NCBI GenBank assembly: GCA_938085045.1
Contig: CALKGI010000028.1
Location: 1 to 64,000 of the forward strand
Direction: 5' to 3'
DNA from: an uncultured Alteromonadaceae bacterium
Lineage (GTDB): Bacteria; Pseudomonadota; Gammaproteobacteria; Enterobacterales; Alteromonadaceae
Length of the DNA stretch: 64,000 nucleotides
Shown here: positions 3,061 through 49,729 of the stretch, piece by piece
Numbering within the stretch: the stretch's first letter is position 1
How the letters are laid out: every line of letters begins with the position of its first letter
Notes under the pieces: generated by a model
What the model saw: the letters and a program-made list of their open reading frames with translations, nothing else
Database searches by the model: none
What the model was told of the DNA's origin: nothing
Program-made: the position numbers and the translations under genes

Positions 3061-4398
3061 GTGCTAAAAATAACGTCAACTTTGCTACTCATGTTTTCAT
3101 TGTCTGCCAGTGCTTATGAAATCGACTATCAAATCACGGTGGCCGAACCGCTTGAGCAGGTAAACGTAAAAGTTTGCTTTAAAAAGCATGTGCCCAGAGC
3201 TTTGCATAATGGTGCATACCGAGATATGAACAGCCTTAATAACACTATTGGGCCAGATGGCAAATCGCTTTATGTTAGTGATAACAAAATGCGCTTAAGC
3301 GGAGTTAAACCTAACCAGTGCATAAGTTACCAAGCTTCATTAAATGGCGCAAAACAGCGCCGAAGAACGACCTATCGTGCAGGAAAAGACATTGTTGTTA
3401 ATAACAACTTATGGTTATGGCAACCGATAAATATTGGCAACAAAGACACCGTAAAACTGACTTTTAACCTGCCCAAAGGTTACAACGTATCAACGCCATG
3501 GACAGCAACAGGCAAGCCAAATCAATTTACCTTAACCACAACACCATACGACTGGGATAGTCGAATCGCCATAGGCACGTTCAAAGTGACGCCAGTGAAC
3601 ATTGCTCAGCAAACCATTCAAGTGGCCATTCTCAACAGCACTGAAAAACGTAAACTCGAATACATCGACTGGATTAAACAAGCAGCGAGCGCTGTTGCAG
3701 GGATAAATGGCAGTTATCCGGTCGACAACGCGCAAATCATCATCACCCCTACCGGTAAAAAACGAGAAGCGGTGCCATGGGGCGAAGTACAAAGGGGCGG
3801 AAGTGTGTCAGCCCACTTTTTTGTCGACAGCTTTCGGCCGATTCAAGAATTTAAAGACGATTGGACCGCCACCCATGAACTTAGCCATATGCTAGTGCCA
3901 TTTATTAGTCGCAACGAGTTGTATCTGTCAGAAGGTATTGCCAGCTACTACCAAAACGTGGCCCGAGGCAAAGCGGGTATGATTAGCGTAGAAACCGCTT
4001 GGGACAAACTGCTAGCAGGGTTTGCGCGAGGTACCAGTTCAAGAAGAATGCAAAAGTACTGGACTGGTGCGGCTATTTATATGATGGCCGACCGCGAACT
4101 GCGCAAACGTTCTAACAACAAACAAAGCTTGGGCACAGTGTTGGATAAGTTTAACAACTGTTGCAGGCCCAGTACTTCGTCGTGGAGCGGACAGCGGTTA
4201 ATGAATCAATTTGATGAGCTGAGCAGCAGTAAGATTTTCACCACGCTTTATTACAAACAGCAGGATAAGTTAGCAGAAGAGCAAGCTAAACGGCGTTTTC
4301 CAGATATTCTGCCCGTACTCAAAGAGATGGGGATTGATGAGTTAAAACGCGATACGTCGAAGCAGTTGAGTGGTGCGGCTTTGGATATTGTGCGTTGA
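3061..4398 (+). CDS. Secreted M61-like gluzincin metalloprotease
   Basis: Predicted exported zinc peptidase, 445 residues, starting with GTG. Residues 1-18 form a signal peptide (LLLMFSLSASA, cleavage near Ala18). Residues 20-180 look like an N-terminal beta domain as in M61/M1 enzymes. The zinc motif HELSH is at 272-276, and the third ligand is probably Glu291 in LYLSEGIASYY, 15 residues after the second histidine, the gluzincin pattern. The C-terminal half is helical. Glycyl-aminopeptidase-like (M61) activity is inferred from the architecture; the substrate is unknown. It is transcribed divergently from the pldB-like gene with a 143-base gap, and precedes the accessory pair at 4558. Confidence 0.72.
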   Translation: MLKITSTLLLMFSLSASAYEIDYQITVAEPLEQVNVKVCFKKHVPRALHNGAYRDMNSLNNTIGPDGKSLYVSDNKMRLSGVKPNQCISYQASLNGAKQRRRTTYRAGKDIVVNNNLWLWQPINIGNKDTVKLTFNLPKGYNVSTPWTATGKPNQFTLTTTPYDWDSRIAIGTFKVTPVNIAQQTIQVAILNSTEKRKLEYIDWIKQAASAVAGINGSYPVDNAQIIITPTGKKREAVPWGEVQRGGSVSAHFFVDSFRPIQEFKDDWTATHELSHMLVPFISRNELYLSEGIASYYQNVARGKAGMISVETAWDKLLAGFARGTSSRRMQKYWTGAAIYMMADRELRKRSNNKQSLGTVLDKFNNCCRPSTSSWSGQRLMNQFDELSSSKIFTTLYYKQQDKLAEEQAKRRFPDILPVLKEMGIDELKRDTSKQLSGAALDIVR

Positions 4399-13093: not shown

Positions 13094-13275
13094 GTCAAAA
13101 GCTCTCACACGGAGGCGCGGCGTTACGGATGTTCTCGAAGAAGGGCAAAAAACAACAGAAGGAAAAGAATAAATTGAAGTTTGTAGACACCTAAATTGTC
13201 ATCCCCATCCCTTTGTTCTTAATCTTTTCCTCCGTGAACCTCCGCTTCACCGTGTCTCCGTGTGAAGCTTTTAAT
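13094..13275. repeat. CACGGAGG inverted-repeat element, copy 2
   Basis: Left arm about 13094-13120 (CTCACACGGAGGCGCGG, the rest diverged) and right arm about 13224-13273 (CCTCCGTGAACCTCCG then CCGTGTCTCCGTGTGAAGCT). It ends about 10 bases from the cpxA stop codon. Same family as 1719, 42374 and 48939. Confidence 0.75.
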
Positions 13276-13284
13276 CTCTAAACC

Positions 13285-14685
13285 TCAAAGCCCGCGATGC
13301 AAAGGCAACTTAACAGTCACCTCTAGCCCCTGTTCTTGATGATTATGGGCAACAATACTGCCGCCATGGCTGCGAATCGACTTTTCGGCAATCGCCAAGC
13401 CCAGCCCGGTGCCACCAGATGAGCGCTGTCGTGAGTCAGATACTCGGTAAAACGGCTGAAATAATTGTGACAATGCCGATGCTGGAACGCCAGGGCCAAA
13501 ATCTCTCACTTTTACAATCACTTGGCTTGCATCAACCTGTAAAGACACGGCTACCGTGGTATTTTGCTCGGTATATTTAACCGCGTTACGCACCACATTT
13601 TCAAACGCACTGGCGAGCAATGCTTGGTCGCCCATTACGTTGGCATCTTCTTTTGTCTCTAACGTTACGGCTTTTTCGTCGCCTTTGGCTTCAAAATTGG
13701 CGTCTTTGACCAAATACGAAAGCAACGATTTTAAACTGAGCGGAAACAATTCAATATTTTGTAACTGGCTTTCTAATCTCGATAGCCTTAGTACATCACC
13801 AATCATATCGTCTAAGCGATTGGCTTCGAGTTCTATGCGCTGCAAATGGCGCTCTAAGTCTTTAGAATCTGGTTGTATTGCCAACCCCAGTGCAATTTGC
13901 ATGCGGGCCAGTGGCGAACGTAATTCATGAGACACATCACCGAGTAGGCGCTTTTGTGCGGCCAGTAATTGCGAAATTTTGTCAGCCATATCATCAAAAT
14001 CTTGGCCAAGTTGGCCGAGTTCATCGTTACGCAGGGCCACACCGTTAGAGCGGGTGTCGAGGTTGCCTTGGGCCAGTGAGCGGTGGGCGTTTCGCAGTGA
14101 AAGAATGGGATTGGTTATCGACATAGCAACAAACAGGCTTAAAAATGCAGAGATCACCAATGGCAATCCAAGGCGCAGCCATAGCGGCAGGCTTCTAAAA
14201 CGCATCATTGGATGAGGGTCGTAACGACCTACGGCAAAAAGGCTATAGTTTGCGTGGTGGTCACTTATTTTAAATGGCCCATAGACAATAAACCCACCGA
14301 TGATTTTGGTTATAGGCGTGGGGTTGTCGGTTTTAAGTTGTTTTATATCAAACTCAGGTGGCAGTGGCTTGGCGCTTTTTAATGGCCCACCTTCTTTAGA
14401 CCACAAAATCATGTGGCTGCGCCTGACTCGGGGCGAACGAATGAGGCGTTCAAAATCATTAACCCCATTGCGTCTGCCACGGTGCAGGCGATCTTCAAAT
14501 GAATCTATTTGCGAGATTATGTAGGGGGGAATACGTTGCTTTTCAAGACCAGGATCAATTTGCGATGCGATGACAACCAAAGCCAGCACTGTTAACGCTA
14601 TCATCAACCAAAACCATAAAAACAGCTTACCAGCCAAATAATTCAGTGGATTCAAGCGCTTGTACCAAGCTTTATGAGCCGTCAT
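13285..14685 (-). CDS. cpxA: Envelope-stress sensor kinase CpxA
   Basis: Histidine kinase of 466 residues. TM1 about 17-41 (LAGKLFLWFWLMIALTVLAL), a periplasmic sensor domain about 42-165, TM2 about 170-192, HAMP, then the phosphoacceptor helix GDVSHELRSPLARMQ, N-box ENVVRNAVKYT, and G boxes DFGPGVP and GGTGLGLAIA. CpxA responds to misfolded envelope protein and phosphorylates CpxR. Its start shares one base with the cpxR stop (TAATG), so the two are coupled. The divergent CpxP-type genes support the Cpx assignment over other OmpR-family pairs. Confidence 0.88.
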   Translation of the reverse strand: MTAHKAWYKRLNPLNYLAGKLFLWFWLMIALTVLALVVIASQIDPGLEKQRIPPYIISQIDSFEDRLHRGRRNGVNDFERLIRSPRVRRSHMILWSKEGGPLKSAKPLPPEFDIKQLKTDNPTPITKIIGGFIVYGPFKISDHHANYSLFAVGRYDPHPMMRFRSLPLWLRLGLPLVISAFLSLFVAMSITNPILSLRNAHRSLAQGNLDTRSNGVALRNDELGQLGQDFDDMADKISQLLAAQKRLLGDVSHELRSPLARMQIALGLAIQPDSKDLERHLQRIELEANRLDDMIGDVLRLSRLESQLQNIELFPLSLKSLLSYLVKDANFEAKGDEKAVTLETKEDANVMGDQALLASAFENVVRNAVKYTEQNTTVAVSLQVDASQVIVKVRDFGPGVPASALSQLFQPFYRVSDSRQRSSGGTGLGLAIAEKSIRSHGGSIVAHNHQEQGLEVTVKLPLHRGL

Positions 14686-15486: not shown

Positions 15487-15600
15487 GCGGCACATCCGTG
15501 TACCGCGTAGCCAGTGCCTAACAACATCTGTTTTGGGGTGGGCACTGGCTTGTTATGTATTACGTGCATTTTATCGCTTACCCGGCCGGGTTTGTAAAGC

Positions 15601-15616
15601 TTTACATAACCTTTAC
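15601..15616 (+). promoter_or_regulatory. CpxR box upstream of first cpxP-like gene
   Basis: TTTAC-N6-TTTAC, the reverse complement of the CpxR consensus GTAAA-N(4-8)-GTAAA, lies 98 bases before the ATG. A further inverted GTAAA (15594-15598) precedes it. The 25-30 bases downstream (TTCATCACGTT then CTTTGCATTG) recur at the second box, so the whole promoter seems duplicated. It may also serve autoregulation of cpxRA. Confidence 0.7.
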
Positions 15617-15714
15617 AGTTCATCACGTTGCTTTGCATTGAGGTCTGTAGACTTGGTTTCAAGGTCATCAAACAAGACCGCAACACACAACAATCACTGT
15701 ATTGGAGCATCATT

Positions 15715-16212
15715 ATGAAAAATATCGTATCAGTATTAGGCTTAGGTTTCGCATTAACTTTTGGCGGCGCAGTATTGGCAGAAGGTCACAATGGGTTTGA
15801 ACGTGGCGAAGGTAAAGGCGGCCATGGCGGCAAAGGGCACATGATGAAACGCATGTTCTCAAAACTCGATTTAACCGACGAACAGCAAACGTCAATTGAC
15901 GCCCTACGCGACCAAATGCACGACTCTATGGAAGCCCTTCGCGGTGAAGGCGAGCGTGAAGATTTACGTGCTCAAATGAAATCTGTGGTACAGGCCGAAA
16001 CATTTGATGAAGAAGCCTTTAAAGCCATGTTGGCAAGTAAACACGCCAAAAAGACAGAAGCGGCTGTTATTAAAGCCAAAATGAAAAACGGCGTTTGGAA
16101 TGTATTGACCGCCGAGCAGCAAGAACAAATGACCGCGATGATGGACGAAAAACGTGAGCGCCGTGGTGGTAAACGTGGCATGCGTCGTGACGGTGGTGGT
16201 TTAAGCAAATAA
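15715..16212 (+). CDS. cpxP: CpxP/Spy-family periplasmic protein, first copy
   Basis: Periplasmic LTxxQ-motif chaperone/adaptor, 165 residues from the ATG at 15715, which gives a clean signal peptide (MKNIVSVLGLGFALTFGGAVLA) behind a TGGAG ribosome site; the upstream in-frame ATG at 15628 is disregarded. The mature N-terminus is Gly/His-rich (GKGGHGGKGHMMKRM), a possible metal site. LTDEQ and LTAEQ motifs bracket a helical body. CpxP inhibits CpxA and delivers misfolded proteins for degradation. It is divergent from cpxRA and followed by a paralogue. Confidence 0.85.
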   Translation: MKNIVSVLGLGFALTFGGAVLAEGHNGFERGEGKGGHGGKGHMMKRMFSKLDLTDEQQTSIDALRDQMHDSMEALRGEGEREDLRAQMKSVVQAETFDEEAFKAMLASKHAKKTEAAVIKAKMKNGVWNVLTAEQQEQMTAMMDEKRERRGGKRGMRRDGGGLSK

Positions 16213-16217
16213 CCACC

Positions 16218-16233
16218 TTTACACAACCTTTAC
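16218..16233 (+). promoter_or_regulatory. CpxR box upstream of second cpxP-like gene
   Basis: TTTAC-N6-TTTAC with the same 6-base spacer as the first box, followed by the same CTTCATCACGTT then CTTTGCATTGCG block. It starts six bases after the stop of the first cpxP-like gene and 109 bases before the next ATG, giving the second copy its own Cpx-type promoter. Confidence 0.7.
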
Positions 16234-16342
16234 ACTTCATCACGTTCCTTTGCATTGCGTTGTGTACACTTTAGTCATCGGGTTAGCAGTTACTCAGCAA
16301 ACAGTTTAGCGAACAACAAACAAAACATTTTGGAGTCACATC

Positions 16343-16852
16343 ATGAAAAAGATTTTATCAGTATTAGGTTTGGGTTTGGCATTAGCATTTGGTGGCGTTG
16401 CCATGGCACAAGGCGACCGCAGTTCAGAACGCACTTTTGACCACAGTGCAGAGCGCGGCCACGGTGGCAATGGCCATCATATGATGAAACGCATGTTCTC
16501 GAAGCTTGATTTGAGCGAAGAGCAGCAAACGCAAGTTAAAGCTTTGAGAGAACAAATGAAGGCCGACATGCAGGCGCTTCGTGGCGATAGCGAGCGCAGT
16601 AATATGCGTGACCTAATGAAATCTATCGTACAGGCCGAAACTTTTGACGAAGATGCTTTTAGAGCTATGTTGGCCGACAAGCAAGCGAAAAAGACAGAAG
16701 CGGCGGTGATTAAAGCTAAAATGAAAAATGGTGTTTGGAATACCCTTAACGCTGAGCAACAGGCTAAAATGACTGAAATGATGGAAAGTCGTGGTAAACG
16801 TCATGGTGATCGCCAAATGCGTCGTCACGGCGGCGGTGACTATAACAAATAA
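16343..16852 (+). CDS. CpxP/Spy-family periplasmic protein, second copy
   Basis: Paralogue of the preceding gene, 169 residues, with signal peptide (MKKILSVLGLGLALAFGGVAMA) and a TGGAG ribosome site. It shares HHMMKRMFSKLDL, the QAETFDEDAF segment and AEAAVIKAKMKNGVWN-like stretches with copy 1. Its LTxxQ motifs have drifted to LSEEQ and LNAEQ, and the N-terminus is less glycine-rich (RGHGGNGHHMMKRM). This points to a tandem duplication including the promoter, then divergence. Its role is probably Cpx-controlled periplasmic quality control or metal response. Confidence 0.82.
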   Translation: MKKILSVLGLGLALAFGGVAMAQGDRSSERTFDHSAERGHGGNGHHMMKRMFSKLDLSEEQQTQVKALREQMKADMQALRGDSERSNMRDLMKSIVQAETFDEDAFRAMLADKQAKKTEAAVIKAKMKNGVWNTLNAEQQAKMTEMMESRGKRHGDRQMRRHGGGDYNK

Positions 16853-20067: not shown

Positions 20068-20832
20068 ATGGAAATAGTAGCCAAGCAAGGTAGTGTCAGT
20101 AACGCCAATGCCTATGATCAAAACCAACCAGCTTCGCAGAGCAAAAACAACTTAGAAGAAATTGCCAAATTTAATGATATCGTGATGTTTTCTGAGCAAT
20201 CGTTGATGCAAAATCAGGTAGATGATTTGTATCAGCAATTAGACGCAGTGTATTTGTCTCGTATATCAAATGCAGATAAAAAGTCGCTTGAATCTGCTTA
20301 TGCTCAATTAGATCAAATCTTTAAAACCAGTCAACCCAGTGAACTTCAAGACAAACAAGCTGAAAAATTGTTTGCCCAAATCGATCAGATTTTCACAACT
20401 GCCCAAGCAGCACTAACTGGGACAGACAAACAACGCATTGAGGTGCTCAATGATAAGATAGACGGTCTGTTTGAAGATATTGAAACAGACAGTCTTGAAG
20501 ATGTTCCAGATGAACTACTGATTGAGCTCGACCCGCTAGAGTTGGAACTCGATAACATTTTGTCATCAACCTTAACTGGCGAACAGAAAAAAGAACTCAG
20601 TACTTTGCACAGCCAAATTGGTCGATTGTTTGACCAAAATGAACGCTCAGAACAAGACAACAAAGTCATTGAAGCGGCTTTTGACAAAATCGATGGTATT
20701 TTGAATCGCTCTTATGATGCTTTAACTGATGCCGATAAACAGCGTGTGCAACTGCTTGAATCGAATATCGACGATGTCTTTGATGCAATGGAACAACATA
20801 GCGAACAGGTGTCGGGTTACTATTCGGTATAA
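20068..20832 (+). CDS. Acidic protein of eight ~25-residue helical repeats
   Basis: Unrecognised cytoplasmic protein, 254 residues, no signal peptide. From about residue 51 to 245 it is built of seven full and one partial repeat of 24-27 residues. The loose consensus is L-x-x-Q-I-D-x-I-F-(8-10)-L-T-x-x-D-K-Q-x-I-E, for example KLFAQIDQIFTTAQAALTGT and AAFDKIDGILNRSYDALTDA. The pattern predicts stacked helical hairpins, strongly acidic. The start ATG (MEIVAKQG) has a weak upstream GGATCACC. It lies directly left of the repeat-bracketed McrBC cassette. No function can be assigned. Confidence 0.7.
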   Translation: MEIVAKQGSVSNANAYDQNQPASQSKNNLEEIAKFNDIVMFSEQSLMQNQVDDLYQQLDAVYLSRISNADKKSLESAYAQLDQIFKTSQPSELQDKQAEKLFAQIDQIFTTAQAALTGTDKQRIEVLNDKIDGLFEDIETDSLEDVPDELLIELDPLELELDNILSSTLTGEQKKELSTLHSQIGRLFDQNERSEQDNKVIEAAFDKIDGILNRSYDALTDADKQRVQLLESNIDDVFDAMEQHSEQVSGYYSV

Positions 20833-20938: not shown

Positions 20939-20996
20939 AATGCTGTGATGGGCTAGGCATGGTGTTCACATCTAATTTTTCACAGCGCACATAAAT
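20939..20996 (+). repeat. 58-bp direct repeat, left copy
   Basis: Identical over 58 bases to 25091-25148 and still related for about 25 bases beyond (the CTACG-TCAAACC stretch). The repeat contains an inverted pair GCTGTGA / TCACAGC. The two copies enclose exactly the mcrBC genes. The 429-base gap 20833-21261 holds this copy, a sigma-70-like promoter at 21052 and no other gene that I can see. Confidence 0.92.
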
Positions 20997-21051
20997 TATA
21001 GTCCTACGCTCAAACCAAACTTCCCTGTAATCGTCAAAAAGTGTGTTGCTA

Positions 21052-21081
21052 TTGTTTCTTTTTGTGGGTGAAAATTATAAT
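21052..21081 (+). promoter_or_regulatory. Sigma-70-like promoter for mcrBC
   Basis: TTGTTT (21052-21057), an 18-base spacer and a perfect TATAAT (21076-21081), about 180 bases upstream of mcrB and inside the repeat-bracketed segment. The cassette would therefore carry its own promoter. Confidence 0.45.
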
Positions 21082-21261
21082 TTCATGTAAGATGATTTAC
21101 AAATGATTAATACTAAAAAATTGGCCAGTGCATACGCTTTTCACTTGGCTTGGCAATTGCGATATAGAGGGTATGGAGCAAGAACAAAACATTGCCATCC
21201 TGTCACTTGCTACTAAATCACGAGTCCCTTTAAATATAATAGAAATAACAAGGACCTTGAT

Positions 21262-23739
21262 ATGTCATCCTATTTATTAACTTGCAACTACAACCCATTT
21301 GCTACTGCTGGCGATGTTTCACAGCAAACTTTGCTCGACTACAAACCGGGCGATGTCGTGCGGTGGCCATGTGATAATAAACAAGTGGTTGTTGGCGATA
21401 TTGTTTATCTGATGAAGTTAGGGGAGGGGGTTAGGGGGTTAATCGCAAAGGGTGTTGTTAGTGCTGCGAGCTATGTCTACACATTTTCGACAGTTGGCGC
21501 TGATGAACAAACTTGCATTGATTTTAGGTTAGAAACGCATCGGCAATCCTGCGAAGAGGGGATCGTGCCACAAGTGTTATTGTTTGCTGCATTTCCCAAT
21601 CAGCAATGGGAAGAGCAAGAATCAGGCCTTTTAATCGAGGCTCAATATCAGCAGCAGATTGACGAACTTTGGCAACAAGGTGAGTCTCTTCATAGTTTAA
21701 ACATTTATTTCAACTGGATTAAGCAGCATAAATTCAATACGGGCTGGTGTAAAGTCTACAAGGAGATGTGCGAGCTTGGGACGACGATCAAACAGTCTCA
21801 ACAGATAAACGAGCGGCAGCTTGAGGCTATTTGGGCTAAAAAAACCAACGGTATTGCCAGTGTCGGACAAGGGTTTATGTATCGTGAGAAAGAGTATGAT
21901 TTAAATAAAGAATACCTTCGTGAGCTAACGCTGAGTATTTTAGATACCCCTTCAAAATCAAACTACAACCGGATTTACAAAGAATGGAAAGCCAAAGGTG
22001 GCTTTACGCGAATGTTGTGGGCTGTGATTAGGCGGGTATTTGCCCTTGCAGACTCACAAACCTTAACCAGTATTGTTGGCGACAGCTATCTAAAAGTGCT
22101 GTTTGAGATTTTAAATGAACAATTTGAACTAAACACCAAATACAGCAACCTTTGGTTTGATGACAATGCAGAACTGTTGTCAAAAACTGCACCTTACCTC
22201 TCATCCCAATTGGATACTCATACCCGAAATATACTGTTATGGCAGGCTTATGAATACTCTCAACCAAAAAAGAAAAAGGGTAATGACAGTGATGAACCAC
22301 AAGACACAGCGCCTGTGACTGCGCCAGACGAGAAAACAAGTAGCGCTGAGGTTTTTGATCCGAGTCAGTTAAATCGGATTTTATATGGTCCGGCAGGAAC
22401 CGGTAAAACTTATTCGACCGTAAAAATGGCGGTAGATACAGCTGATCCAACATTCGCTAAGACAGAGCAAAGCAGGGAATGTTATAAAACAAGATATGAT
22501 GAACTTGTTGGTCAGAATCGAATAAGGTTTGTGACCTTTCACCAAAGTTTTGGGTATGAAGAGTTTGTTGAGGGTCTTAAAGCTTCAAGCGATGGCGGTA
22601 ATATTTCGTATGATGTTGAAGATGGCATTTTCAAAAACATAGCACTACAAGCTGAAAAATATATAAAAACCAAAGCGGCTAAATCTTCCTATAGCTTTGG
22701 TAAAGCTTGGCAAGCTTTTACCGAATCACTAGCTGAGGTCGACTTTATTGAAGTTAAAATGTCTAAAACCTCTTTTAAAGTGCTCAGTTTTAATGACAAG
22801 CGGATAGTTTTTGAAAAGCAAAATGGTAGCTTAGACCACACATTAAGCATTGCGACCTTACAAGCTATCTTTGAAGGTAAAAGGGAATACAACTCTGGTT
22901 TGGGGGTTTATTACCATCCGTTAGTGCGGTATTTAAAAAGGTCTAGCAATTTAGAGCAAGTGCCTGCTATTGAACGGCAAAATTTTGTTTTAATCATAGA
23001 TGAAATTAACCGGGGCAATATTTCAAAGATTTTTGGTGAGTTAATTACTTTAATTGAACCATCTAAACGCTTGGGTCGGTTAGAGGCCTTAACGGTTACA
23101 TTGCCGTATTCAGGTGACATCTTTTCTATACCTGACAATCTTTACATCATCGGCACTATGAATACTGCTGACAGGTCGTTGGCGTTAATGGATACGGCGC
23201 TAAGAAGGCGATTTGATTTTGTAGAATTGATGCCTGATCATACCGTATTAACGAATGCACAGGGTTTGCCAGCATTTATTGAAATTACGCTTTATATGGG
23301 AAAAAAGGCAACCATTGATTTGCAAACGCTTTTAGTTACCTTGAATAAACGAATCAGTGCGCTTTACGACAGGGAACATACCATTGGCCATGCTTTTTTT
23401 ATGCCTGTGATAGAAAAGTTAAATGAAGATGATCACGAAGCGGCCTTACAGACGCTTGCGAGTTGTTTTAAAAACAAAATTATTCCGTTGCTTGGTGAGT
23501 ACTTTTTTGAAGACTGGCAAAAAATTCAGTTAGTGCTTGGCGATAACCAAAAGCCCAAGAAATGGCAGTTAATTCAGAAGTTAGATGTTAACCTTGAAAG
23601 CCTATTTGGCAATATCGAAGCGTTAGATGTTATTGATGATGAAACACGTGAATTCCAACTTATTGAAGACGATTCAAAACAATGGGATGACCCGATGACC
23701 TATATTGGCATGTACGATATATCTCGTTTAGGTGATTGA
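21262..23739 (+). CDS. mcrB: EVE-domain McrB GTPase
   Basis: GTP-driven motor of a type IV (modified-cytosine) restriction system, 825 residues. The N-terminus (about 1-120) looks like an EVE/PUA-type modified-base reader (NPFATAGD, VVVGDIVYLMKLGEG, GLIAKGVV). A helical region follows, then the AAA+ core: Walker A YGPAGTGKTYS near 375-385, Walker B FVLIIDEINRG near 575-585, and MNTADRS at 633-639, the McrB-specific motif for GTP, then LRRRFDF. AAGGA sits 8 bases before the ATG. McrC begins 6 bases after the stop. EVE-McrB fusions are known; E. coli McrB carries a different reader domain. Confidence 0.9.
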   Translation: MSSYLLTCNYNPFATAGDVSQQTLLDYKPGDVVRWPCDNKQVVVGDIVYLMKLGEGVRGLIAKGVVSAASYVYTFSTVGADEQTCIDFRLETHRQSCEEGIVPQVLLFAAFPNQQWEEQESGLLIEAQYQQQIDELWQQGESLHSLNIYFNWIKQHKFNTGWCKVYKEMCELGTTIKQSQQINERQLEAIWAKKTNGIASVGQGFMYREKEYDLNKEYLRELTLSILDTPSKSNYNRIYKEWKAKGGFTRMLWAVIRRVFALADSQTLTSIVGDSYLKVLFEILNEQFELNTKYSNLWFDDNAELLSKTAPYLSSQLDTHTRNILLWQAYEYSQPKKKKGNDSDEPQDTAPVTAPDEKTSSAEVFDPSQLNRILYGPAGTGKTYSTVKMAVDTADPTFAKTEQSRECYKTRYDELVGQNRIRFVTFHQSFGYEEFVEGLKASSDGGNISYDVEDGIFKNIALQAEKYIKTKAAKSSYSFGKAWQAFTESLAEVDFIEVKMSKTSFKVLSFNDKRIVFEKQNGSLDHTLSIATLQAIFEGKREYNSGLGVYYHPLVRYLKRSSNLEQVPAIERQNFVLIIDEINRGNISKIFGELITLIEPSKRLGRLEALTVTLPYSGDIFSIPDNLYIIGTMNTADRSLALMDTALRRRFDFVELMPDHTVLTNAQGLPAFIEITLYMGKKATIDLQTLLVTLNKRISALYDREHTIGHAFFMPVIEKLNEDDHEAALQTLASCFKNKIIPLLGEYFFEDWQKIQLVLGDNQKPKKWQLIQKLDVNLESLFGNIEALDVIDDETREFQLIEDDSKQWDDPMTYIGMYDISRLGD

Positions 23740-23745
23740 GAATTT

Positions 23746-25092
23746 ATGGCCCGCCCACCAAGAAAGAGTAAAATAGTCAATATTACTGTGTTTGAGTATG
23801 GATTAATAAGTTCAAACCCAAAGGCAGAGAAAGACCACCGAGTAACTCATTTACCACAAGCGGCTTTTGACTATTTAAGAAAGAGTTGTTTGTGTGATGA
23901 TAGCGAATCTCGTTTTTTAAGGTTAAGAATTGCGCACGGTATGGAGGCGCTGCAAGTTCAAAATTATGCCGGCGTGATACTTTGCCCAGACGGCACACAA
24001 ATTGAGGTGTTGCCTAAGGTTGCTAAAACGGGTGAGGATGGTAAAAGTGATGAATTAGCCAGGTTATCGTTATTGATGATGCTAAAGTCATTGCGCCAGT
24101 TTCGTTTTATCGAAACCGAGACAACCAGTATAAAAAAACAGAAAATGCCGCTAATGGAAATTTTTGTTACGCAATTTTTGAATGCTGTAAATCGTTTGGT
24201 CAAAAAGGGCATTAAAAGCGATTATGTTAAAGAACAAGCCAACAGCGTATTTTTGAAAGGCAAGTTACTCACTAACCAGCAACTAAAATATAATATTATC
24301 AATCGTCATAAGTTCTACGTTGAATATGATGCCTATCTAACAGACAGAGCCGAAAACCGGTTAATTCGCTCTGCACTGGATGTTTTATCTTCTTACACCA
24401 GTGCTAATCAAAGTAAAAAGCGCATTCAAGCGTTACTTTTTGTCTTTGGCGAAGTGCCTTTAAGCAAAGATTACAAATGCGATTTTTCTAGGATAAAGCT
24501 AGAACGCGGCATGCAACATTACGAGGCGCCAATGGGTTGGGCGAGGTTAATATTAGAAGGCTTTTCACCACAGTCGATGTTAGGCAAGCACAACGCATAT
24601 TCGCTATTATTCCCGATGGAAGCGGTATTTGAATGCTTTGTCGCAAAGTATTTGAAACAGCGAGTGCCGCTGCCGTTAAAACTCTCTGCTCAAGTTCAAA
24701 GTAAGTCTTTGGTTCGCTACGGTGATAAAAACTATTTTCTTTTAAAACCAGACCTTTACCTTCGTGGCGCAACTGCCACAAACACAGTGTTAGATACCAA
24801 ATGGAAGTTAATCGATCAAAATAAAAAAACGGGCAAAGACAAGTTTGGTTTATCTCAGGGTGACTTCTATCAAATGTTGGCTTATGGACATAAGTATTTA
24901 AATGGTGAAGGCGATTTGGTGCTGATCTATCCCAAAACAGACAAATTTGATGAACCGCTAAAGCACAGTTTTGATTATGACGACGAGAGCCGATTAAAGC
25001 TTACAGTCGTACCTTTTGACATTGCTCATTATCGTAATGATCAGAATAAAGCACGAATCGATTTAAGTTTGTTGGGTATTAGCAATCAATAA
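23746..25092 (+). CDS. mcrC: McrC nuclease subunit
   Basis: Partner of McrB, 448 residues; McrC stimulates the GTPase and cuts DNA. The N-terminal beta domain includes LQVQNYAGVILCPDGTQIEV; the C-terminal PD-(D/E)xK site is LLKPDLYLRG (Asp336) and VLDTKWK (Asp350, Lys352), followed by FGLSQGDFYQMLAYG, which is typical of McrC. The stop codon lies at the very left edge of the right 58-bp repeat. Catalytic residues are intact, so the system should be active. Confidence 0.9.
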   Translation: MARPPRKSKIVNITVFEYGLISSNPKAEKDHRVTHLPQAAFDYLRKSCLCDDSESRFLRLRIAHGMEALQVQNYAGVILCPDGTQIEVLPKVAKTGEDGKSDELARLSLLMMLKSLRQFRFIETETTSIKKQKMPLMEIFVTQFLNAVNRLVKKGIKSDYVKEQANSVFLKGKLLTNQQLKYNIINRHKFYVEYDAYLTDRAENRLIRSALDVLSSYTSANQSKKRIQALLFVFGEVPLSKDYKCDFSRIKLERGMQHYEAPMGWARLILEGFSPQSMLGKHNAYSLLFPMEAVFECFVAKYLKQRVPLPLKLSAQVQSKSLVRYGDKNYFLLKPDLYLRGATATNTVLDTKWKLIDQNKKTGKDKFGLSQGDFYQMLAYGHKYLNGEGDLVLIYPKTDKFDEPLKHSFDYDDESRLKLTVVPFDIAHYRNDQNKARIDLSLLGISNQ

Positions 25093-25148
25093 TGCTGTGA
25101 TGGGCTAGGCATGGTGTTCACATCTAATTTTTCACAGCGCACATAAAT
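25091..25148 (+). repeat. 58-bp direct repeat, right copy
   Basis: Perfect copy of 20939-20996. Here the sequence runs on as CGCACAT-AA-ATGTGCG, a complete small palindrome that is broken in the left copy, so the right copy may be the older one, native to the leader of the downstream GTPase gene. The mcrC stop overlaps its first two bases. Confidence 0.92.
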
Positions 25149-25205
25149 GTGCGTTCTACGGTCAAACCCGGTAAACTAGCGCTTTTTTGATAAAGAGAAA
25201 TTACT

Positions 25206-26060
25206 ATGGCGATTAACTGGTTCCCAGGCCACATGTTTAAGGCGCAAAAAGAGATCGCCAAAATAATGAATCAAGTCGACTTGATCATTGAAGTGCTCGA
25301 TGCCCGTATTCCTTTTAGTAGCGAAAACCCCATGGTGCCTCAGTTGCGCGGTCGCACACCTGTTTTGAAAGTGCTCAATAAAAGTGATTTAGCCGACCCC
25401 GCCACCACGCAATTGTGGATGGATAAGCTAGAGCTCGAAGAGGGCACGACTGCTATTGCTCTGACTCAAAAACAACCTGCCACGGTGCGCAGCATTTTAT
25501 CTATTTGCGAAAAAATGGTGCCTGAGCGCAATCTTGAAGCCACACCACTGCGAGCGATAATTCTCGGCATTCCAAACGTTGGTAAATCTACACTTATCAA
25601 TACCTTGGTTGGGCGTACGGTGGCCAAAACTGGCAACGAACCGGCGGTTACTAAAACACAACAGCGTATTCGTTTGCCCAATAATATTGTATTACACGAC
25701 ACTCCTGGGTTTTTATGGCCCAAACTTGAGCCTGAGGAATGTGGTTATCGCCTTGCTGTAACAGGTGCTATTAAAGATACTGTGGTCGAATATGAAGATG
25801 TTGCGATGTTCTTTGCTGACTATTTACTTAATGCCTATCCTGAGATTTTGCTCGAACGCTTTGGTTTGAAAGAATTACCCGAGACCGAAATTGAAGTGCT
25901 CGAGGCCATCGCTGCCAAGCGAGGCTGCTTGCGTAAAGGCGGCAGAGCCAATTTGCACAAGGTTTCTGAAATATTACTGCATGAATATCGCTCTGCAGCT
26001 TTGGGCCGTTTGAGCCTAGAAACCCCTAAAATGGTCGAAGACGAAAAACTAAGTAATTAA
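25206..26060 (+). CDS. ylqF: Ribosome biogenesis GTPase YlqF/RbgA
   Basis: Circularly permuted GTPase that helps mature the 50S subunit, 284 residues. The motif order is G4 LNKSD (about 57-61), G1 GIPNVGKST (about 119-127), then G3 DTPG (about 163-166), as expected for the permuted fold. The N-terminal NWFPGHMFKAQKEI is the family hallmark. The C-terminal domain includes RKGGRANLHKVSEILL. Its leader carries the right copy of the 58-bp repeat. Confidence 0.93.
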   Translation: MAINWFPGHMFKAQKEIAKIMNQVDLIIEVLDARIPFSSENPMVPQLRGRTPVLKVLNKSDLADPATTQLWMDKLELEEGTTAIALTQKQPATVRSILSICEKMVPERNLEATPLRAIILGIPNVGKSTLINTLVGRTVAKTGNEPAVTKTQQRIRLPNNIVLHDTPGFLWPKLEPEECGYRLAVTGAIKDTVVEYEDVAMFFADYLLNAYPEILLERFGLKELPETEIEVLEAIAAKRGCLRKGGRANLHKVSEILLHEYRSAALGRLSLETPKMVEDEKLSN

Positions 26061-48938: not shown

Positions 48939-49143
48939 GAAAAGCTTCACACGGAGACGCGGAGGCACGGAGGTTCACGGAGAAAGATAAAAGAAGAAAA
49001 ACAAACAAAATGGACTAAAAGACAGTTATGTTGCTGAAGGAAAACGCCTAAAGACAGTTAAGCAAACCACCCCTTGATCTTTTTTTTAAACTTTTCCTCC
49101 GTGAACCTCCGTGTCCCCGCGTCTCCGTGTGAAATCTTTTGAC
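48939..49143. repeat. CACGGAGG inverted-repeat element, copy 4
   Basis: Best-preserved copy. Left arm about 48939-48986 (CACACGGAGACGCGGAGGCA then CGGAGGTTCACGGAG) and right arm about 49092-49142 pair almost fully around about 105 A-rich bases. It lies between the two-TM protein start and the nfuA stop (8 bases away). Confidence 0.82.
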
Positions 49144-49150
49144 CTAAAGC

Positions 49151-49729
49151 CTAATAGTAAGAATGCTCACCAGCTTCATGTTCGGTGGCGTCTCTAACAC
49201 CATTTATTTCGTCTTCGAATTTGGCCAGTAATTCTTTTTCGATACCTTCTTTTAGCGTCACATCAATCATTGAACAACCATTACAGCCGCCACCGAATTG
49301 CACGATAGCAATTTTATCTTCAGTGATTTCAGTCACCAAACAGTTACCGCCGTGGTTGGCCAGTTGTGGATTGATGTCGGTTTCTATTACGTAATTGAGA
49401 CGTTCAAGTAAAGGTGCGTCATCATTTACTTTTCTCATTTTTGCGTTTGGTGCTTTAAGCGTTAACTGTGAACCCATTTTATCGGTAACAAAATCAATAT
49501 CGGCTTCTTCGAGGAACGGTGCACTGTCAACATCTATAACGGCGTCAAAACCGTTAAAATTCAAGGTGATGTCTGTGTCTTCAACCGAATCAACCGGACA
49601 ATATGAAACGCCACATTCGGCTTGTGCAGTGCCTGGGTTTACGACGAATACGCGGATATTGGTTTTGTCTGCTTGTTGTGACAGCAAAGTGGCAAAATGG
49701 GCCTGGGCGGCGTCGGTGATATTGATCAT
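49151..49729 (-). CDS. nfuA: Fe-S biogenesis protein NfuA
   Basis: Iron-sulphur carrier that delivers 4Fe-4S clusters to apo-proteins under stress, 192 residues from the ATG at 49729 (E. coli NfuA 191). The longer in-frame start at 49897 is rejected as it would add 56 non-conserved residues. The N-terminal degenerate A-type domain ([30 protein letters not shown]) precedes the Nfu domain with the cluster motif GGGCNGCSM. nfuA close to comF and bioH is a conserved gammaproteobacterial neighbourhood. Confidence 0.94.

Follow-up and report, generated by a model that had tools for sequence, protein, structure and literature searches.

An mcrBC gene pair enclosed by long, locus-specific direct repeats before ylqF: most likely the footprint of an insertion in an Algicola-like marine bacterium

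In the window analysed here, a stretch of 64,000 nucleotides from the 133-kb contig C28 of an Algicola-like marine bacterium, an mcrB-mcrC gene pair lies between two perfect 58-bp direct repeats that are specific to this locus. Scars of this kind have already been described for other restriction systems, and the repeats around mcrBC are most likely the footprint of an insertion. On balance, and with modest confidence, we favour an event in which mcrBC was inserted by recombination before ylqF, leaving or bringing with it a duplicate of some 60-80 bp of the ylqF leader.

The two copies of the repeat are found at 20939-20996 and 25091-25148, both on the forward strand, and the ORF list and a profile search place only mcrB, mcrC and their leader between them, with no integrase or transposase ORF. 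This agrees in coordinates, identity and content with the initial annotation, which had also described similarity fading past the 58 bp. That similarity can be followed further: an ungapped match extends over 78 bp (20939-21016 and 25091-25168) with 72 of 78 positions identical (92%), and all six mismatches fall in the final 20 bases, a clustering with a chance of 1.5e-4 under a random spread. In the left copy the diverged tail covers 20 bp (20997-21016, forward strand), 14 of them identical to the right copy; the right tail (25149-25168, forward strand) belongs to the ylqF leader. Leftward of both repeats, identity breaks off immediately. The mcrC stop codon falls on the right repeat, as first noted: the last two bases of its TAA (25090-25092) are the first two of the repeat, whose 58-bp copy ends 57 bp upstream of ylqF.

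The 58-bp sequence is the longest exact repeat of the contig, in which the remaining exact direct repeats of at least 21 bp belong to a 33-bp tandem array or a dispersed family. A search of the organism's own genome, a 5.9-Mb draft in 317 contigs that is 81% complete, returned two copies, both at the mcrBC locus. The sequence was found neither in the 60 relatives searched, nor in 395 genomes of the order, nor in the plasmids searched, nor, by exact 25-mer search, in viral contigs. Because none of these sets yielded a further copy, the repeat is not a dispersed element, and the possibility, raised with the initial annotation, of an ordinary sequence scattered through the genome can be set aside. 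The idea that the repeat is an mcrC terminator which travels with mcrBC was likewise rejected: the sequence is absent at homologous loci, and a terminator scan returned nothing at either repeat. No structured RNA of known kind was found around the left copy. The pairing energies of the repeats with their flanks, considered as a sign of native junctions, were -23.0 and -20.7 kcal/mol for the outer flanks versus -12.9 and -12.4 kcal/mol for the inner ones, with no single value above background.

Several other features were recorded in the window and contig. A dispersed repeat, CACGGAGACGCGGAGGCACGGAGGTTCACGGAG, occurs at 1714-1768, 1868-1922, 13211-13285, 48940-48999 and 49079-49152, and at contig positions 122204-122374, often as facing pairs with a spacing of 100-150 bp. 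Tandem gene duplicates at 15600-16852 encode a small secreted protein, Spy/CpxP-like in appearance, and share a 55-bp leader repeat at 87%. The segment 28858-30431 carries an AAA_14/DUF4143 gene, assigned to the PADLOC candidate family PDC-S01, together with a 33-bp tandem array. Algicola sp. DT_2 lacks this segment, and its neighbours there lie about 75 bp apart (positions 3246-3321 of locus L162); no direct repeats were found at the ends of the segment.

To judge from their sequences, both genes of the cassette look intact. A 265-bp leader (20997-21261, forward strand) runs from the left repeat to mcrB (21262-23739, forward strand, 825 aa), in which the Walker A, LIIDEIN and MNTADR motifs are undamaged. 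The full-length mcrC (23746-25092, forward strand, 448 aa; PF10117, E=2e-99) encodes KPD and DTK, which we take to be the motif residues of a PD-(D/E)xK nuclease. McrB matches solved McrB proteins (2e-54) and McrC matches a solved McrC (9e-14). Adjacent genes for a protein with AAA+ GTPase motifs and one with the PD-(D/E)xK nuclease are the make-up of a type IV McrBC system, and the presumed substrate for cleavage is DNA that contains modified cytosine. Since the C-terminus of McrC (LSLLGISNQ) ends level with those of its homologues (LSLLGISNK in G083, LSLLGISSK in G072), mcrC has not been cut short, and it is at the gene's natural end that the repeat begins. The N-terminal ~340 residues of McrB (21262-22296) matched no Pfam family and are probably the modified-base reader; structure prediction of this part without an alignment gave a mean pLDDT of only 38, and a full-length relative at locus L156 shares 48% identity.

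The third codon positions of mcrB and mcrC have a GC content (GC3) of 0.38-0.39 versus a contig mean of 0.443 (s.d. 0.04). To the right of the cassette, ylqF (25206-26060, forward strand) encodes a ribosome biogenesis GTPase (TIGR03596, E=2e-101). To the left, a gene at 20068-20832 (forward strand) encodes a protein of 254 aa that belongs to no known Pfam family and is rare in the bacterial family; it too is low in GC3, so the acquired stretch may exceed the cassette. This left-flank protein was not found beside ylqF in other genera: in genome G027 its best homologue is on contig C4 and ylqF on C22.

Among 197 genomes of the family, mcrC is sporadic, with 16 containing it. In the nearest homologues the pair sits among type I restriction genes (L152 and L155), downstream of a tRNA-Leu at a distance of some 2.7 kb (L153), or alone amid unrelated genes (L156). 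An AAA_15 ATPase gene that is absent from the window follows mcrBC at L152 (11061-12527) and L155 (11113-12579), which represent two genera. None of the ten homologous loci examined had ylqF near mcrBC and none had flanking direct repeats longer than 13 bp: mcrBC is a gene pair that occurs at various loci, and with ten loci devoid of them, long repeats are not one of its general properties. Nor is the pair fixed at this locus in all relatives, the other circumstance that the initial annotation had named as telling against its reading. Its suggestion of an exchangeable defence spot is not supported: no relative was found with other cargo or with an empty single-copy site. The only congener compared, DT_2, is a metagenome assembly whose contigs stop at codon 142 of the LysR gene and codon 141 of ylqF, on either side of the same interval; mcrC was not found in this assembly, which breaks where mcrBC would lie.

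The point at which the repeats diverge coincides with a hairpin. At the end of the right copy, the minus strand carries a complete GTAG-tagged hairpin, CGTAGAACGCACATTTATGTGCG (25138-25160), and perfect identity between the copies stops at its loop. The left-copy counterpart (20986-21008, minus strand) retains the GTAG tag, one arm and further matches beyond, with the other arm replaced (TATAG for GTGCG). REP sequences have the same make-up of GTAG tag and hairpin (PMC3733652), and in its own genome the hairpin is, like them, repeated between genes: the pattern CGTAGNNCGNNNNTTTANNNNCG returned six matches, all of them hairpins or nearly so, versus none for the reversed control. The same pattern gave three matches in DT_2 versus two for the control, which is no excess by count alone, and a loose search of the contig for GTAG hairpins showed no clear excess over shuffles; only the specific motif exceeds its control. 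The genome encodes six homologues of Y1 transposases, four of which are long RAYT-like proteins. Because the right copy has both the ylqF leader and the hairpin in full, whereas the hairpin of the left copy is broken, the right copy looks like the native one.

Most simply, these features would be explained by an insertion with a long target duplication. The ancestral site would have held a single copy of the ylqF leader, and an intact type IV, modification-dependent mcrB-mcrC cassette would have recombined into the interval before ylqF in an event that left, or arrived with, a second leader copy, so that direct repeats came to bound the cassette. The direction would have been gain, not loss. 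Such a gain by recombination at one repeat, already suggested by the initial annotation, is argued for by a repeat that is locus-specific, an mcrBC pair that is sporadic and independent of locus, and the lack of a mobility gene inside. The low GC3 of mcrB and mcrC and the native look of the right copy also speak for it. The locus has three of the features expected of a target duplication: direct repeats in the range of tens to hundreds of bp around restriction genes (perfect over 58 bp, 92% identical over 78 bp), a repeat that is locus-specific rather than dispersed (two copies, none elsewhere) and an insert of mcrB and mcrC only, free of integrase, transposase or IS. Other points count against it. 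A further expected feature, a single target copy in a relative that lacks the insert, falls in the interval at which both DT_2 contigs end. The clustering of mismatches in the tail calls for a second step, for which the incoming copy may have been different already or the first 58 bp may have been converted later, and the scar is seen once only, since the relatives' mcrBC pairs have no flanking repeats. The rare, low-GC3 left neighbour may mean that more than the cassette was acquired. At 58 bp, the perfect repeat is sufficient in length for homologous deletion, and low-rate loss of the cassette would be expected; recombination between the repeats could delete or amplify it.

Site-specific integration, too, could produce a perfect core flanked on one side by a graded tail. 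In that case the two repeats would represent attL and attR, the ends of a small integrative element that might be what is left of a larger island and that a tyrosine recombinase supplied in trans had moved; the 58 bp would be the core, and the graded tail the element's imperfect version of the target. Also in line with this explanation are the single direct repeat found at either end, with no third copy, and a boundary that coincides exactly with a stop codon. We nevertheless think it unlikely, given that there is no integrase between the repeats and no tRNA gene in the window, that the repeat is unlike a dif site, and that the mcrBC pairs of relatives have no such ends. Three defined classes of element were considered and rejected: an integron gene cassette, as by eye the attC boxes RYYYAAC and GTTRRRY are not in place in the repeat; a Xer/dif-exploiting element (IMEX), as the best 28-bp dif match of the repeat is no better than shuffles; and a genomic island with its own integrase, as the element contains no integrase gene.

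The arrangement could instead be a historical accident, in which mcrBC came by some other route to lie between two old copies of the leader, or it could reflect misassembly at the repeat. The fragmentation and incompleteness of the draft leave some room for error. However, the copies have different tails and all four flanks differ, which shows that two real sites are involved; the sequence occurs only at this locus, and the left copy has no known structured RNA around it. We regard this explanation as quite improbable. That the 78-bp element is itself mobile, MITE- or REP-derived, and was inserted on both sides of mcrBC in the style of a composite transposon is very unlikely: part of it is the dispersed GTAG hairpin and RAYT-like proteins are encoded in the genome, but the whole element exists in two copies only, both here, and on inspection these have neither terminal inverted repeats nor target duplications. 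Finally, the stop of perfect identity at the hairpin loop raises the idea that the hairpin took part in the event, with single-strand processing at the GTAG hairpin, by a RAYT or through replication stalling, fixing one end of the cassette. We give this little credence; if true, it would be a REP-guided insertion route for restriction genes without a recombinase of their own.

The hairpin is comparable to GTAG-tagged REP/RAYT systems (PMC3733652, PMC2817692) in the succession of GTAG tetranucleotide and short hairpin, in its dispersal between genes and in the presence of RAYT-like proteins; it differs in its low copy number (six with the pattern used), and its role in the mcrBC event is only conjectured. 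A parallel to the cassette is provided by the mobile mcrBC units of Fukuda et al. 2008 (PMC2614495, Kobayashi group), which in the passages considered here are argued from phylogeny and context to behave as mobile elements. Those units are likewise sporadic two-gene operons at varied loci, some of them in restriction-modification (RM) complexes as at L152 and L155, but mobility is deduced there from linkage to integrases, plasmids and RM complexes, and those passages do not mention direct repeats.

Under the insertion that we favour, the nearest known counterpart is RM insertion with long target duplication. RM units insert with long, variable target duplications of ~100 bp, unlinked to a mobile element (PMC3874152; PMC3031569; see also PMC1643837; Kobayashi group), and the mcrBC locus shares with the described cases (Nobusato et al. 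2000; Furuta et al. 2010; PMC3874152) restriction genes alone between target repeats of tens to ~100 bp and no linked mobility gene. It differs in that it carries a type IV McrBC and no methyltransferase, in that one boundary lies in a stop codon and identity ends at a REP-like hairpin, and in that the locus is seen only in its two-copy state. What is known of restriction genes moving without their own recombinase comes mainly from RM-system comparisons in a few genomes. A clean, methyltransferase-free McrBC case in a marine gammaproteobacterium, with stop-codon and hairpin boundaries, would extend such scars beyond addictive RM pairs, and the locus would be a simple place to measure gain and loss.
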